A stretch of DNA of 64,000 nt, taken from NCBI RefSeq assembly GCF_001548055.1, contig NZ_AP014724.1:1674001-1738000 (forward strand). The letters run 5' to 3'. Below the pieces are notes generated by a model. It searched no databases and was not told where the DNA came from. It was given only the letters and a program-made list of their open reading frames with translations. A program made the translations under genes and the position numbers. Every line of letters starts with the position of its first letter. The stretch's first letter is position 1. The DNA comes from Sulfurospirillum cavolei. Lineage in GTDB: Bacteria; Campylobacterota; Campylobacteria; Campylobacterales; Sulfurospirillaceae. Positions 36,874 to 44,238 of this stretch are shown in pieces.

Positions 36874-37269
36874 ATGGTTTTTAGTCTTAAAATGCCTCTT
36901 TTAGGGTTTGAATCGATTCAAGAAGTGGAACTTGAAAAAATCGACGAATTCTTCGTTAAATTTATTTCAAAGTCCGATACGACAACATTTACGCTTATCA
37001 ACCCCTTTATGCTGAGACCTTACGAATTTGAAATCCCCGAATATTTTAGAACACTCCTCGATATTAACGAAAAATCAAACATTCTTATCCTCAATATTAT
37101 GATTATCGCCACTCCCATTGAAGCCTCTACGATAAACTTTTTAGCCCCGTTGGTTTTTAACGTCGATAACGGTGCAATGGCACAAGTGGTCTTAGACGCC
37201 AACAAATATCCGGAATTCGGCTTGATGGAAGGAATCGCTCGGTATTTGAATAAAGGGAAATCTGAGTAA
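36874..37269 (+). CDS. fliW: Flagellar assembly factor FliW
   Basis: 131 residues with the FliW barrel pattern (PLLGFESIQEVELEKID, then LINPFMLRPYEFEIP and TVNFLAPL-like ending). FliW antagonises CsrA and binds flagellin, coupling flagellin synthesis to secretion. It stands alone, upstream of the prepilin-like operon. Confidence 0.93.
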   Translation: MVFSLKMPLLGFESIQEVELEKIDEFFVKFISKSDTTTFTLINPFMLRPYEFEIPEYFRTLLDINEKSNILILNIMIIATPIEASTINFLAPLVFNVDNGAMAQVVLDANKYPEFGLMEGIARYLNKGKSE

Positions 37270-37341: not shown

Positions 37342-40300
37342 ATGAAAACCAATGCGTTATCTTTTTTTTCTTTTGTTTTCATCTCTTTCTTGCTTTTATT
37401 TCCCTCAACAGGTTGGAGTAAAGGGAAAATAATACAACATCAAAATCCTTTCGTATCTGCGCTACCGTCCGGTTCTTCGCTAAGCTTATACGGCGATTTT
37501 ATTGCAACCGGAACATCCGTGCTTTGCCAAAACGATGGTCATGGCAGTTGCAATAATGCCTATACGGGCTATTTATACGAATCCAATTTAATGTATAAGA
37601 ATGCCGTCTCGACATCCGTTATACCATTAAACTCGGCAACAGCTACTTTAACATTGCCATCAGGTATTGCCGGAACAGATATCGTATGGGCTGGATTATA
37701 TTGGCAAGGTCATATTGCCGGACAAAATGCGTCTAATTATACAACCGATAGCAAAATTCAAAATAGAAACAAAGTCGATACTCTATGGCCGGATGGAACA
37801 GCATCTTCCCTTTCAGCAGATACGATATGGTATCATGATTTTTGGGGAGACGGCACAGGTAATTCTGGAGGTTATCGATCTTTTTATCAAGGATATAAAG
37901 ATGTCACAGCTTTACTTAAAAACCATCTCATTCCAGGAACATCACAACCTATCACTGTAGGGAATATCAAAGCTAATAGCGGAACAGATTGGTATTCTTA
38001 CTTCTATTTAGCATCTGGTGCAGAAGTTAACGGAATTAAATTTGGATTTTGGGGAAATTGGGCTCTTGTCATTGTATATAGTTACCCAGCTAATAATATT
38101 CCCGCCAATGCTAAATTAAAAAATGTTCAAGTAACTCATGGCTTTGATGCAATGGTGCCTTTAGATATCAATGGATATAAAACGTTTAATATCACATTAC
38201 CCGTTAATGGATTTTTAACGCCTAAAGAAAGTACAGTTAATGCAAAAATGCTCTTTTATGCCGCAGGCGGAGAAAAAAATATCGCAAGAGATGCATTTTA
38301 CATTCAAAATGCTAATAATGGCTACGCTTATACAGCCGTCTCAAACACCCAGAACCCATCAAATAACCCCTTTAATGGTACCGTTTCCAATAATGGCATC
38401 GCTATAGACAATACGATTTCTTACTACCCTGGATTAGATTTGGATACATTCGATGTATCACAATATATGACAAATCAACAAACCAATACCGCGGTGAAGC
38501 TTGAAGCTACTTTTAGTAATAATAATGGTGATCAATCAATGCCCGGGATTCTAGCTTTTTCAACGGAACTTTATGAACCAAAATTTTGTTACGATTATGC
38601 TTATTCTCAAAATGGAAAATACTTTACGGAAAGCAATAATGGCACATCTTTGCCCCGGGTTCAAGGTAAAATTACACCGACAGATGACATTAATGTCTCT
38701 ATTTATATTAAAAATGAAGAAAACTCAGATGTTGAAGCGCAAAATTTAACGCTTGATATTACAGATATTAATACATCTCAAGCAATTTATAATCGAAATA
38801 GTACTTATGTTGTACACCCTTACGAAATAGTACCTGTTCTTATGCCTGATTCTAGTTTAACGGTAAGCGATTCTCAGATTGTCGGTATTCCGCATGGAAC
38901 CATCAACGGCAATGAGTATTTTTACACTTATTACACGTTAACTCCAAAGGCTATAAATGATATCAATATTTCTTTAAATGCACAAATTAATTACAATCTT
39001 GTTTTAACAATTGGGGGAAATACGGTTTCTCTTCCGTATTCTTATACGGTAGGAAGCACCAAGTTCCCACTATGTACTGGTGATGTGACCAAGTATGAGC
39101 CTAATTGGGGAACTTTTAATATTGCAGCAAAAGGTGTTTATAACAGTAATGACACTTACCCAAAATTTAATATCCCTACTCAAGTTGTAAATCGCCCCGG
39201 AGCATACCTTATCACTGCGCACGACGCCAATAGTACACCGGTTGCTTATACGAGAGAATTAACTATTCCTACGGTCGTAGGTATCGAAATTATAGATGCC
39301 GGTAAATTTCATAATACGAAAGCTAGCTGTGATGAGCCTTCTAGCGCAATTAGTGAACGCTTTTGGGTTCCTTTCGTAGACACAACGGGTGCCAAATCAC
39401 AAGTCGATTTTCAAACAGCTTTACAAAAAGCGATTGATACCAATAGTATTTCTATTACTAATATTAAAGAATATTTTAATAAAGCAAGACAAAATACGGC
39501 ATTTCGTATTAGCGCAAATGTTGGAGATGCTAATAATACCGTTATCAAATACGAACAACTTTCTAACGGAAAATACCGAATGATCAACTTTACAGAGCTT
39601 GTACAAACATACGGTACGTGTAAAAAAACGGTTAAAGCTCCCAATGGTACGAGTACGACTAATCAAGTCGCAGTTGCATGCGGTAATGCTGGAAACACCG
39701 GTGTAGACTACTTCACGCTCGCACAATGTCATGAATGTATTTTAGGGTATCGTACCCTTTATACATGTTCAAGGGATAACTTTGCAACACGACCGGAAAG
39801 TTTCAACGTTAAACTAAGTGATCTTAATCAAACAAATCATGCACAAACTCAATCTTTTGCACAAGATCGCACGGGTGTAATATTACCGAATAATGAAAAA
39901 ATTCACATTGCTACTGGTTATGCCTATCGTTTTGATATTAATGCGACAGATCACGACGGGAATAATGCTAGTTCCGGTTATACGCGCTACTTTACCACTT
40001 CTGCGACAGATCATAATATTTCTTTTGTATGGCAACCTCTCTCTCCAATTAACCCTTCAATACGATGTAATGACCTTTCTAGTAAACCTCTTACTTTTAA
40101 TATGATTAATGGAATAATCTCAAGTGAAGCTAATCTGACCAATGTCGGAGAATACCGACTCAATATGATTGACACGAATTGGACGCTTGTTGATAACAAT
40201 ATTAACTACATGACACATCATCGTTCTGCTTCCGTCAAAGGCGTTACAACAGATGTTAGTAATTATTTTGTCGGCTTCGGTAATGCCTTAGACTGTAAAG

Positions 40301-41535
40301 AAAATAGTTCAATAACTCAAAACTCTTCTATGCTACCTTCAATTTCTGGGAACACACTTACAAATATTAACGGTTGTACAATCGATACCAACAACCATGA
40401 CAACAACGAAGCCGGATTAAAATACCGCGATTACAACGTGTCTTCTCATCCTTATCGTTTCAGCCTTTTACTGACCCCTTCTTATGGAGTCAATAACAAT
40501 AACGACTTTACAAACGCTTGGGTTTATATGAATGATCTTAACGATACAAATGATATTCATAAGCATGCCGACATGAATGAATCAATGCATTTTAGAGGTA
40601 CCATTAGTGCTACAGGTTACGACAATACATCCATGAGCAATTTTGTGACAGGCTGTTATGCGCAAGATATTAATATTAGCATGGACCATACGTATTCTCG
40701 TATGCCTCCTATGCCTTATCAGTATCGTCTTTTTGATCTTAATTCAACAGACGACATTATTAGTATTGTTCCAAAGTTGACCACTAATCCAGGCGATGCT
40801 AATACGACAATAGTTCTTAGTGAAGGTAATTTTACCAAAGATCTTAACGGTGCGATCAAAATTAATCAACATCTTAACTTTGATCGCAACACTTCAAATC
40901 CTATCAATCCGATTGTAGTAATCTTTAACGACCTGAATACAACCTGTAAGCAAAATCCCGATTGTACAATGCAAGCCGATTTAAAGAGTGGTTATACGAC
41001 AGAGGGAAACCTTACAGTCGACGTTAACGTTACACACTATTACGGACGCGCTTACTCGACCGATTATCGCGGTCCTAGTGCTATCGATACAACTATTCGC
41101 TATGAAGTGTATTGTAAAGATTGTAATAAAACCGATCTGAATATTACGGGAGCACAAAGCCCGACATCGCTTAATTGGTATCAAAATATGAGGCATGATG
41201 CTTTAACCGATGGTAACATTAGCGTATTTACCTCAGTTTCAGCAGGCACAGCAAAAGAAACAACGATCAATCCGATAACCACTCCCGTAGGCGGTATTAC
41301 ACATGGTTTAGAAAGCTATAATGCTCATTTAACCAATGCCAACGCTCCTTATACGGATCGTATTCGCATGACACCTTCTTCTTGGCTTCTTTATAATCCG
41401 TTCAATGCAGCAGCAACCACTAACGATTTTAACGTAGAATTTACACGTTCGGGGAATTGGGCTGGAGAAGGAAATTTGGGAAGAACCGTTGATTTAAACA
41501 CTTCAACACGTACCAACCGTAGGATGGAATGGTAA
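37342..41535 (+). CDS. Giant secreted beta-rich protein, possible pilus-tip or MshQ-like adhesin
   Basis: 1397 residues. A signal peptide (about 1-26) precedes a domain at about 40-420 with motifs WAGLYWQG (117-124), YQGYKDVTALL and NWALVIVYSYP; this pattern occurs in large bacterial surface proteins with beta-sandwich repeats. The middle is Asn/Thr-rich and beta-prone with paired Cys (CHEC near 794). The C-terminal part (from about 1230) has HYYGRAYSTDYRG and CKDC and resembles the end region of MSHA protein MshQ, though weakly. No C-terminal anchor is seen. The gene is clearly AT-richer than its neighbours. It overlaps the first prepilin gene (TAATG), so it is probably assembled with those pilins. 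Function is inferred from context. Confidence 0.7.
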   Translation: MKTNALSFFSFVFISFLLLFPSTGWSKGKIIQHQNPFVSALPSGSSLSLYGDFIATGTSVLCQNDGHGSCNNAYTGYLYESNLMYKNAVSTSVIPLNSATATLTLPSGIAGTDIVWAGLYWQGHIAGQNASNYTTDSKIQNRNKVDTLWPDGTASSLSADTIWYHDFWGDGTGNSGGYRSFYQGYKDVTALLKNHLIPGTSQPITVGNIKANSGTDWYSYFYLASGAEVNGIKFGFWGNWALVIVYSYPANNIPANAKLKNVQVTHGFDAMVPLDINGYKTFNITLPVNGFLTPKESTVNAKMLFYAAGGEKNIARDAFYIQNANNGYAYTAVSNTQNPSNNPFNGTVSNNGIAIDNTISYYPGLDLDTFDVSQYMTNQQTNTAVKLEATFSNNNGDQSMPGILAFSTELYEPKFCYDYAYSQNGKYFTESNNGTSLPRVQGKITPTDDINVSIYIKNEENSDVEAQNLTLDITDINTSQAIYNRNSTYVVHPYEIVPVLMPDSSLTVSDSQIVGIPHGTINGNEYFYTYYTLTPKAINDINISLNAQINYNLVLTIGGNTVSLPYSYTVGSTKFPLCTGDVTKYEPNWGTFNIAAKGVYNSNDTYPKFNIPTQVVNRPGAYLITAHDANSTPVAYTRELTIPTVVGIEIIDAGKFHNTKASCDEPSSAISERFWVPFVDTTGAKSQVDFQTALQKAIDTNSISITNIKEYFNKARQNTAFRISANVGDANNTVIKYEQLSNGKYRMINFTELVQTYGTCKKTVKAPNGTSTTNQVAVACGNAGNTGVDYFTLAQCHECILGYRTLYTCSRDNFATRPESFNVKLSDLNQTNHAQTQSFAQDRTGVILPNNEKIHIATGYAYRFDINATDHDGNNASSGYTRYFTTSATDHNISFVWQPLSPINPSIRCNDLSSKPLTFNMINGIISSEANLTNVGEYRLNMIDTNWTLVDNNINYMTHHRSASVKGVTTDVSNYFVGFGNALDCKENSSITQNSSMLPSISGNTLTNINGCTIDTNNHDNNEAGLKYRDYNVSSHPYRFSLLLTPSYGVNNNNDFTNAWVYMNDLNDTNDIHKHADMNESMHFRGTISATGYDNTSMSNFVTGCYAQDINISMDHTYSRMPPMPYQYRLFDLNSTDDIISIVPKLTTNPGDANTTIVLSEGNFTKDLNGAIKINQHLNFDRNTSNPINPIVVIFNDLNTTCKQNPDCTMQADLKSGYTTEGNLTVDVNVTHYYGRAYSTDYRGPSAIDTTIRYEVYCKDCNKTDLNITGAQSPTSLNWYQNMRHDALTDGNISVFTSVSAGTAKETTINPITTPVGGITHGLESYNAHLTNANAPYTDRIRMTPSSWLLYNPFNAAATTNDFNVEFTRSGNWAGEGNLGRTVDLNTSTRTNRRMEW

Positions 41536-42206
41536 TGCGTTCTGCTATGTCGCTTATTGAGCTTGTCTTTACGATCGTCATTATGGGGATTGCCGTGATG
41601 AGTTTGCCTCTTATTCTCACGCAAGTTCAACGAAACGATGCTTTTGCGATGCAACAAGAAGCGATTTTAGCGGCAAAGGCAAAAATAGGCAATATCCTCA
41701 CGTATGAGTGGGATCACAATAGTTACGATTCAACAGCGTCACGTTCTTTTGTCCTTGCTACCAGTAGCCCGGATACGGAACTTAATTGTAATGGAACGAC
41801 ATTTCGCCGTCTTGGTCACGTCAATGCCGATTCTCGGCGTAAATGCTCTGCCACGGGCGCATCGGCAAGTGCTATCGGTGCTGATGCGGGTGACGGTGGG
41901 AATTTTACCGATATCGACGATTTTGACGCAGATGCGATCAACATTAGTGCCTCTGCGGAAGGAGCCGGTACGCTCGATTATATTTTCAATTTAAACCTGA
42001 GAACAAGCATCACTTATGCGGCAGACAGTGCTACCTATAACGTCTCACCCGTTGTATTTACTTTGAATCCCGATAATAATGCGACCGTTACCAATATTAA
42101 GACAATATCCGTTACCGTATCGGGCGGCGACCAAAATATAACGTTACGTGCCTTTACATGTAACATCGGAGAATCCATGCTTCTTCCATCAAGGCCGTAC
42201 CAATGA
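41535..42206 (+). CDS. Prepilin-like protein (PilV/MshD-like)
   Basis: 223 residues with a type IV prepilin leader: MRSA, then MSLIELVFTIVIMG with Glu5 of the mature form. Cleavage would be after Ala4. The ATG at 41535 forms TAATG with the previous stop; an ATG two codons earlier is also possible. The mature protein has one hydrophobic N-terminal helix and an Asp/Ala-rich beta head with four or so Cys. It is larger than a major pilin and fits a minor pilin. It overlaps the next gene by 4 nt. Confidence 0.85.
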   Translation: MRSAMSLIELVFTIVIMGIAVMSLPLILTQVQRNDAFAMQQEAILAAKAKIGNILTYEWDHNSYDSTASRSFVLATSSPDTELNCNGTTFRRLGHVNADSRRKCSATGASASAIGADAGDGGNFTDIDDFDADAINISASAEGAGTLDYIFNLNLRTSITYAADSATYNVSPVVFTLNPDNNATVTNIKTISVTVSGGDQNITLRAFTCNIGESMLLPSRPYQ

Positions 42207-43177
42207 AAAAACGCTCCGCTTTTACGTTGATAGAGTTAGTGATGGTCATCGTGGTTTTCGGTATTATTGCAAGTATCGGAGCCGAGATTATCACGAAAAT
42301 GTATGAAAACTATTTGCGAACGCGCGCGATCAATCGCCTACAGAGCCAAACCGAAATTACGCTAGAGCAAGTTGCCAAGCGTCTACAATATCGCATCAAA
42401 GATAGCGTAAGAGCAAGCAACGATAACGGTGCCTCGTGGCGAGCACTACCAAATGCGATAGCAGGATATGACACAATCGAGTGGATCGGGATCAGCAACG
42501 AAAGCTTTTTGGGCGAACATAACGGAACTTCCGTCGTTCCGGGATGGAGCGGCTTAATCGATATGAACGATACGGTTAATACAAGCCATGCGGCAAGAAC
42601 GCTTTCCACACCGGGAAGCAGGTTGGATTTTACCAACAATATTATCAAATCTCTTACCGACAATAATGTTGCCATGGATGGAACGGCAATTAAGCACCCT
42701 GCACTTATTTTTAAAGGAGCAAAGCCGGGTACTTTTTCAAATTATTATGAAAATGCCATTACTATAGGGAACAATCCTTATGCAAGAAAGGTTCGATGCG
42801 TGGGTAATAATTGTGCGGCGAATTTTTCCACTTTACAACTTCTATCCAATGCGGCCAACGATGATTTGATCGACTATGACGGTGATGGGAATGGAGATCT
42901 CTTTGAACAATACTACCTCGCCCATAGTGCTTATGCTCTCGCACCTATAGGAGCTGCCGATGATTTTAATCTGACGCTTTATTACAATTATCAACCGTGG
43001 GAAGGCGAAACCTATACGCCAAACGGTACATCGACGGTACTTGCCGAGCATGTCAGTACGTTTCGTATTCGACAAGACGGCGATAGTATTCGTATCAAGC
43101 TCTGTATTCATGATGCCAACCAAAGTATTGCCAGTAATTTTGACTTTAGCGCATGCAAAGAAAAGGTGATTTACTAA
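42203..43177 (+). CDS. Prepilin-like protein (PilW/MshO-like)
   Basis: 324 residues with a class III signal (MKKRSAFTLIELVMVIVVFG; cleavage after Ala6, Glu5 present). Its large size is characteristic of PilW/MshO/GspJ-type minor pilins. The head holds an aspartate loop at about residue 223 (DYDGDGNGDL) that looks like a calcium site and two close Cys (RCVGNNC). Start and stop overlap both neighbours (ATGA, TAATG). Confidence 0.85.
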   Translation: MKKRSAFTLIELVMVIVVFGIIASIGAEIITKMYENYLRTRAINRLQSQTEITLEQVAKRLQYRIKDSVRASNDNGASWRALPNAIAGYDTIEWIGISNESFLGEHNGTSVVPGWSGLIDMNDTVNTSHAARTLSTPGSRLDFTNNIIKSLTDNNVAMDGTAIKHPALIFKGAKPGTFSNYYENAITIGNNPYARKVRCVGNNCAANFSTLQLLSNAANDDLIDYDGDGNGDLFEQYYLAHSAYALAPIGAADDFNLTLYYNYQPWEGETYTPNGTSTVLAEHVSTFRIRQDGDSIRIKLCIHDANQSIASNFDFSACKEKVIY

Positions 43178-43629
43178 TGAAAAGAGGGTTTACACTGATT
43201 ACCGCCATTATCTTTATCGTGTTAATTGCTACTATTGCGGCATTATCCCTCTCTTTTTCAACGTTTTCTACCAAACAAACCAGCGATCTCTATCTTAGAG
43301 AACAAGCCGAACTTTTACTTCAAAGCGGAACCGAATTTGTGCTTTTGGCCATCAGCGCTCATGAAATCAACGCAACAAATGGATGCATTAACGCAGTGAA
43401 TGCACAATACCCTCAGGCCGGAGTCAATGCTCTTTTTGATATCAATGCTACGATTTATTACATCGGTAACGGGCTTCCTTTAGCATGCAATATCTTAGGC
43501 GATAATGCCCTAGCAACCACCGACTCTAATGTCACCGTCATTATCGATACCGTCGTTGAAACAACGCCCGGAAACAACATCTCCACAGAACCCATTCGCT
43601 TGCATCGCCGCACGATCCAAAAGCCGTAA
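43177..43629 (+). CDS. Prepilin-like protein (PilX/MshP-like)
   Basis: 150 residues. MKRGFTLITAIIFIVLIATI is a prepilin-type leader and helix, but position 5 after the cleavage site is Thr and not Glu, as in PilX, MshP and GspK types that cap the fibre. The rest carries two Cys and a beta-prone head. TAATG start inside the previous stop; AAAGGTG upstream. Last gene of the unit. Confidence 0.8.
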   Translation: MKRGFTLITAIIFIVLIATIAALSLSFSTFSTKQTSDLYLREQAELLLQSGTEFVLLAISAHEINATNGCINAVNAQYPQAGVNALFDINATIYYIGNGLPLACNILGDNALATTDSNVTVIIDTVVETTPGNNISTEPIRLHRRTIQKP

Positions 43630-43719: not shown

Positions 43720-44238
43720 ATGAACACGAGTATCGTAGGTAAACAATTTGATTTGACCGAGCCGATTAAGGCTTATATCGAAGGAGCGGTTGATGCTCTT
43801 GGCAAATACAATTTGGATATTATCTCCGTGCGTACGGTGATCGCAGCCGATGAAAAAAACGGTAAAAAAGGCTTTAACGTTGAATTTGCGATCAACATGG
43901 CACATAAAAATACGATCGTTATCCAACAAAAAGACAAAGACGTTTATGCGGCGGTCGATCTTGCGATTGAGCGCGCTAAAAAAGTGCTTCGTCGCCATCA
44001 CGATAAAATTATTACTAACTCTAAAGCCACGGAAGATGCACCTCTCGTGATCGAAAATCAAGAAGGAAGCGACGACGAAATCGTTCCGATGCGTTTAGAC
44101 AGCTACAAACCGATTGAGGTAGAAGACGCGATGAACGAGCTTAAAGCTTCCGATAAACAATTCCTCGTTTTCCACGATATGGAAGACAAATTCCGCGTGA
44201 TGTATAAAAAAACCGACGGACGATTCGGTCTTTATTAA
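43720..44238 (+). CDS. hpf: Ribosome hibernation promoting factor, long form
   Basis: 172 residues: N-terminal S30AE domain (about 1-100; MNTSIVGKQFDLTEPIKAYI) and the C-terminal dimerisation domain of long HPF (about 118-172; DEIVPMRLDSYKPIEVEDA). It drives formation of silent 100S ribosomes in stationary phase. ATG 43720 has AAGGAG about 7 nt upstream. Confidence 0.92.
   Translation: MNTSIVGKQFDLTEPIKAYIEGAVDALGKYNLDIISVRTVIAADEKNGKKGFNVEFAINMAHKNTIVIQQKDKDVYAAVDLAIERAKKVLRRHHDKIITNSKATEDAPLVIENQEGSDDEIVPMRLDSYKPIEVEDAMNELKASDKQFLVFHDMEDKFRVMYKKTDGRFGLY

Follow-up and report, generated by a model that had tools for sequence, protein, structure and literature searches.

Results and discussion

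Organisation of the operon

The window, i.e. the whole 64,000-nucleotide stretch analysed here (C1:1674001-1738000), belongs to a complete 2.70-Mb genome and carries at positions 37342-43629 four open reading frames (ORFs) that the first-pass annotation had described, from the sequence alone, as genes coupled by TAATG/ATGA overlaps. All four ORFs are present where that annotation had placed them and each junction was confirmed. The first encodes a 1397-residue protein, hereafter the giant, and the following three encode minor-pilin-like proteins designated V, W and X. The genes and their two neighbours are as follows.

36874..37269, + strand: fliW, conserved syntenic 5' neighbour, outside the tip module
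37342..41535, + strand: the giant, putative MshQ-type tip protein of 1397 aa; ~1-26 signal peptide, ~37-500 N-terminal core (conserved, beta-rich), then a middle region, ~807-1397 C-terminal region (DUF6701-like)
41535..42206, + strand: V, MshD-like minor pilin; Glu5 present; another in-frame ATG at 41529
42203..43177, + strand: W, MshO-like minor pilin of 324 aa; N_methyl leader, Glu5 present
43177..43629, + strand: X, MshP/GspK-like minor pilin of 150 aa; ORF opens at 43153; no Glu5; C-terminal QKP conserved
43720..44238, + strand: hpf-like gene, conserved syntenic 3' neighbour, outside the tip module

The giant and V genes overlap in TAATG (41533-41537), V and W in ATGA (42203-42206) and W and X again in TAATG (43175-43179). 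Translation of X probably starts at 43177 rather than 43153, since most homologues start at the methionine of 43177. Within the operon, promoter signals were not in excess of those in shuffled sequence, and a search for a + strand terminator revealed none.

The three minor pilins

Alignments of homologues showed that V and W bear prepilin leaders with an invariant Glu5. The last pilin had been reported to lack this residue, and X indeed carries Thr in its place, with Glu in none of the aligned homologues. Pfam and NCBIfam models matched only the prepilin leader of W and gave a weak leader match for V and a weak GspK match for X. The three proteins were compared as profiles to the products of two msh loci of classical layout, running from mshL or mshM through to mshQ, in Oleispira (L184) and Pseudomonas fluvialis (L186); both loci had been picked up with the W profile and served as references for MshD, MshO, MshP and MshQ. 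More specifically, V scored 95.5 against MshD (E 9e-15), 41.7 against MshO and 28.6 against MshP, and shares with MshD a DD[IV]DD[FY] motif that lies outside the leader. W scored 80.9 against MshO (E 3e-11), 54.3 against MshD and 23.2 against MshP, while X scored 39.9 against MshP (E 6e-6), 32.3 against MshD and 22.9 against MshO; the W-MshO and X-MshP matches mostly span the N-terminal 60-75 residues. The best partner thus fell on the diagonal in every row, in line with the PilV/MshD, PilW/MshO and PilX/MshP mapping made at first pass, and the assignment of V, W and X as one-to-one counterparts of MshD, MshO and MshP is well supported by these profile comparisons.

Identity of the giant

The giant had been described as secreted and beta-rich. 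Its N-terminus is, by sequence, a plausible signal peptide, and AlphaFold models of residues 37-500 (pLDDT 86, pTM 0.84) and 798-1397 (pLDDT 76, pTM 0.74) were both beta-rich. Fold searches returned generic Ig-like arrays only for the C-terminal model and weak double-jelly-roll-like matches only, with a TM of about 0.2, for the N-terminal core; these matches were left out of the functional evidence. None of the solved structures matches the giant by sequence, and searches of Pfam and NCBIfam with it gave zero matches. The PilY1 domain PF05567 was absent from the giant in a search at E up to 1, and a PilY1-type tip was accordingly rejected; a genome-wide search for the domain gave no signal in any control and was given no weight. 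The first-pass view of a tip adhesin unlike PilY1 thus stood, and could be refined to an MshQ-type protein (DUF6701) by way of relatives.

The domain DUF6701 (PF20419) is that of MshQ, the putative adhesin of MSHA pili; MshQ from Oleispira and from P. fluvialis matches it at 1e-113 and 1e-122, respectively. It gave no direct score on the giant of the window, whose copy appears to be too diverged to score. Proteins of 17 of the 100 relatives examined do exceed the cut-off, the best match being the G024 giant (5.2e-24); the G007 giant is also among them (8.8e-19), and its N-terminal part is 62% identical to the window giant. Seen via such relatives, the C-terminal ~580 residues of the family correspond to DUF6701. 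Alignment of the giants' C-termini with the two MshQ tails by hhalign gave an E of 3.4e-6 over 180 columns at a probability of 88%, which is below 95%, and a control with the giants' N-terminal core against the same tails gave an E of 0.34. Since the window giant lacks a direct DUF6701 match, its membership of the MshQ family rests on these intermediates, through which it is supported. An MshQ-type tip protein in turn argues for a system of MSHA type rather than a type IVa pilus (T4aP).

Pilus machinery elsewhere in the genome

Filament machinery had been expected elsewhere in the genome, and a genome-wide search found a secretin, an ATPase, a platform protein, pilins and a peptidase, which excludes the case of a genome with no such machinery. 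A cluster at about C1:1369.6-1378.4 kb shows an MSHA-like gene order around the ATPase: MshI-like, MshJ-like, secretin, AAA ATPase, TPR protein, ATPase and platform protein. The secretin lies over the MshL equivalog cut-off (TIGR02519, 264 vs 250.2 bits) and under that of PilQ, and the ATPase, the only one of PilB/MshE class in this genome, and the adjacent platform gene exceed the cut-offs of PF00437, PF05157 (the MshEN domain) and PF00482. The AAA ATPase and the TPR-like protein occupy the MshM and MshN positions and had no match to an MshM- or MshN-specific model. The genome further encodes two PilT-like ATPases, one of them over its own PilT cut-off, a single prepilin peptidase (1419.6 kb), two tandem pilins with N_methyl leaders (837.7 kb), candidates for the major pilin MshA although they match no Msh-specific model, and a GspH/FimT-like pilin at ~745.7 kb (L063:4193-4840). 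The MSHA-type membership of this machinery, like that of V, W and X, is well supported.

A type II secretion pseudopilus, with the giant as an exported substrate that is either released or surface-bound, would also draw on this part list: V, W and X correspond generally to GspI/J/K, X resembles GspK, the major pilin candidate resembles GspG and the ATPase resembles GspE. The secretin, however, passes MshL and fails GspD (173 bits, cut-off 351), the ATPase falls short of GspE (524 bits, cut-off 630), PilT-like ATPases are present and the giant belongs with the MshQ family. With the GspD and GspE cut-offs missed, we rejected this reading as extremely improbable.

Two minor features of these genes can be recorded. 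Only spurious-looking ORFs were seen 3' of the GspH/FimT-like pilin, in a region that we presume may be an rRNA operon. In one consolidated cluster, MshE (L190:14923-16587) is matched by NF053729, a model of the c-di-GMP-binding motif related to MshE, for which the MshE of the window's genome (L035:10924-12672) was not listed.

Conservation across Campylobacterales

The first-pass annotation had proposed a comparison of synteny, and this showed the operon and its overlaps to be conserved between fliW and hpf, within a frame lon-bamD-fliW-(operon)-hpf-recG that is maintained across Campylobacterales. Of 20 relatives chosen from across Campylobacterales, most have the arrangement giant-V-W-X with like stop/start overlaps, and it recurs in 17 of 17 same-genus loci, in one of which the giant is broken. 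Because of this conservation the operon is not a chance arrangement. A profile of the C-terminal 600 residues of giants picked up family members in 81 of 100 relatives; the W profile detected pilins in 97, some by the common leader helix only, and the genome's own MshL as query detected secretins in 94. A contig search with the W alignment named carriers in Sulfurospirillum, Sulfurimonas, Sulfurovum and other Campylobacterales.

From the match lists of the giant family and MshL, at least 23 genomes were counted in which a giant and an MshL-like secretin are no more than ~12 kb apart. Five such clusters read gene by gene (L190, L192, L193, L103 and L213) contain V-W-X, a GspH-like pilin, MshI/J/K-like proteins, MshL and MshM- and MshN-like proteins, with a giant adjacent or nearby, as well as MshE, MshG and pilins where the locus is long enough. 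These consolidated clusters therefore tie the tip genes to MSHA-type machinery.

The same comparison bears on whether the giant could stand apart from the pilus, as a surface or outer-membrane protein that has only its transcription in common with the minor pilins. Orphan or separately placed family members do occur, and in some sampled loci, e.g. L051, L060 and L098, a giant stands with no detectable V-W-X alongside. Such a reading is nonetheless very unlikely given the overlap coupling conserved over most of the order, the clusters that join giant and machinery, and the C-terminal region common to the giant and MshQ.

Two further loci were recorded in this survey. The giant of G015 (L208:3989-8235, single-contig genome) is split into three ORFs of 882, 224 and 304 aa beside an intact V-W-X, and is either a pseudogene or the result of a sequencing error. 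In a Helicobacteraceae metagenome-assembled genome from sheep colon (L185:7333-10362), V-W-X is directly followed by a pilT-like gene, with no giant next to it.

Proposed function and comparison with known pili

The operon quite probably encodes the tip module of a retractable pilus of MSHA type, one with a split arrangement and an MshQ-type tip. In this model V, W and X would come together as a minor-pilin complex and prime assembly, which the MSHA-type machinery located elsewhere in the genome would carry out. The giant would attach to the complex through its DUF6701-like C-terminal region and display its N-terminal beta domains at the tip, where they could bind surfaces, other cells or polymers; the PilT-like ATPases would retract the pilus. 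We infer the adhesive role of the giant, as well as the physical assembly of the tip, the priming and the use of distant machinery by this tip set. The distance between operon and machinery counts against this assignment, as does the pairing of the syntenic locus with a DNA-uptake system in a C. jejuni-type genome. In classical MSHA loci (L184, L186) mshQ is the last gene of one contiguous locus, whereas here the MshQ-like gene comes first and the tip genes are split from the machinery; contiguity is the usual arrangement rather than a functional criterion. One-to-one minor pilins, a tip protein assigned through relatives to the MshQ (DUF6701) type, MshL/MshE/MshG-type machinery and PilT are shared with those loci, but DUF6701 is strongly diverged here, and the C-terminal tails of both MshQ proteins gave no match to the ~460-aa conserved N-terminal core.

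The T4aP set FimU/PilV/PilW/PilX with PilY1 is alike in combining three or four minor pilins with one large non-pilin tip protein (PMC10191384), but the giant lacks a PilY1 domain and the secretin is of MshL and not PilQ type. PilY1 caps the T4aP minor-pilin complex, and in the same work MSHA is termed poorly characterised (PMC10191384). Loss of MshQ, the putative adhesin of MSHA, reduces the amount of surface MSHA (PMC7096442), the length of the protein varies among Shewanella strains (PMC7439477) and mshQ exchange affects squid host specificity (PMC4094467). MSH systems have been reported in Epsilonproteobacteria by a survey (PMC6668835), and the type IV pilus genes of Thiovulum show mixed T4a, T4b and MSH affinities (PMC9938260). 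To this the present analysis adds the tip operon that belongs to the Campylobacterales system, how its modules vary and a link to ctsT. A likely function can be proposed for a large family of unannotated proteins, present in about four fifths of the sampled Campylobacterales genomes, and with it a candidate adhesin for recognising hosts or surfaces in bacteria of vents, sediments and guts.

Divergence and modularity of the giants

Mean pairwise identity over the 17 same-genus loci was 84% for FliW, 86% for HPF, 73% for X, 61% for W and 55% for V. For the giant (16 same-genus loci) it was 45% over the C-terminal 340 residues and 27%, with a range of 8 to 96, over residues 31-430. In iterated searches, which could drift but had strong first-round matches, residues ~37-640 of the window giant aligned to most giants. 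Extra N-terminal modules in the other giants shift these alignments by up to ~2800 residues. The extra modules in relatives include PA14, Calx-beta, DUF11 repeats, Laminin_G_3, H_lectin and cadherin-like domains. The giants of L043 and L044 stand out in that their first ~410 residues have been replaced or have diverged strongly, with the remainder still ~61% identical. G076 (L049:2788-13365) encodes two tandem giants whose last 2301 bp are 99.0% identical and whose 5' ends are divergent; V-W-X follows the second copy only. The gradient of divergence and the modules fit a tip adhesin with an exchanged or diversified head.

Giants were also seen in other settings. G012 has an orphan giant of 1417 aa with no pilins (L210:3001-7254) that has only the C-terminal ~470 residues (42%) in common with the operon giant of the same genome. 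In G088 (L211:4199-18514), neighbouring giants of 2984 and 1601 aa are ~81-85% identical in DNA over long stretches.

The operon slot in Campylobacter and its possible relation to ctsT

The complete operon is retained in C. concisus (L160). In G071, fliW is followed by proC, then by genes for a 97-aa pilin, a 188-aa product and an X-like protein, and the C-terminal profile detected no giant in this genome. The gene order there runs through a cadF-like gene, a hydrolase and a pyruvate oxidoreductase to cts-like genes that include a 519-aa CtsE-like ATPase, and from the cadF-like/pyruvate-oxidoreductase/cts order we take G071 to be of C. jejuni type. A homologue of the window genome's MshL was found in it (2.4e-55). 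In C. jejuni, proC is cj1076, ctsT (100 aa) is cj1077 and CtsE has 519 aa (PMC8308473). From the G071 slot and this numbering, the transformation gene ctsT appears to lie in the syntenic slot of the tip operon. The Cts system (CtsT locus cj1075-cj1079; CtsD/E/F) resembles the one described here in its syntenic minor-pilin locus by fliW and its homologous secretin, ATPase and platform protein, but it has no giant tip protein, its pilins are strongly reduced and its function is DNA uptake. Neither this operon nor Cj1078 was found described in the literature searched.

These likenesses raise the question of whether the operon could itself serve a DNA-uptake (competence) pilus, as the ancestor of the ctsT locus of C. 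jejuni, with the giant as a DNA- or surface-binding tip. The ctsT-like pilin locus beside fliW/proC in G071, the MshL homologue in that genome and the ComEC encoded in the window's own genome are consistent with such a role. We nevertheless consider it unlikely: ComEC is common (10 of 14 control genomes), the giant would be dispensable for DNA uptake since the C. jejuni-type genome lacks it, and both the rapid divergence of the head and the presence of PA14 and lectin-like modules suit surface recognition better than DNA binding. A single pilus could serve both adhesion and DNA uptake.

Returning to the tip module of an MSHA-type pilus, a wider scenario can be drawn towards which we remain slightly more sceptical than convinced. 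Campylobacterales would share an ancestral adhesion pilus with exchangeable heads, the DNA-uptake system of C. jejuni would be this MSHA-type pilus deprived of the tip adhesin it once had, and the tandem or orphan giants with common C-termini, such as the G076 pair, would be recombination cassettes for head switching. The link between the C. jejuni transformation pilin locus and an adhesion pilus makes the derivation of a competence pilus from an adhesion pilus testable.

Other genomes of this set show reduced forms of the locus. G086 and G099 have the arrangement fliW-V-W-X-hpf with the giant missing; G099 encodes, far from V-W-X, a separate 673-aa family member that matches the DUF6701-like part only (E 1.3e-15; L189:4650-6671), and G053 has a 798-aa tip protein at the operon position. 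As relatives have tip proteins of ~670-800 aa, the DUF6701 part alone may act as a structural cap that is separable from the adhesive head.
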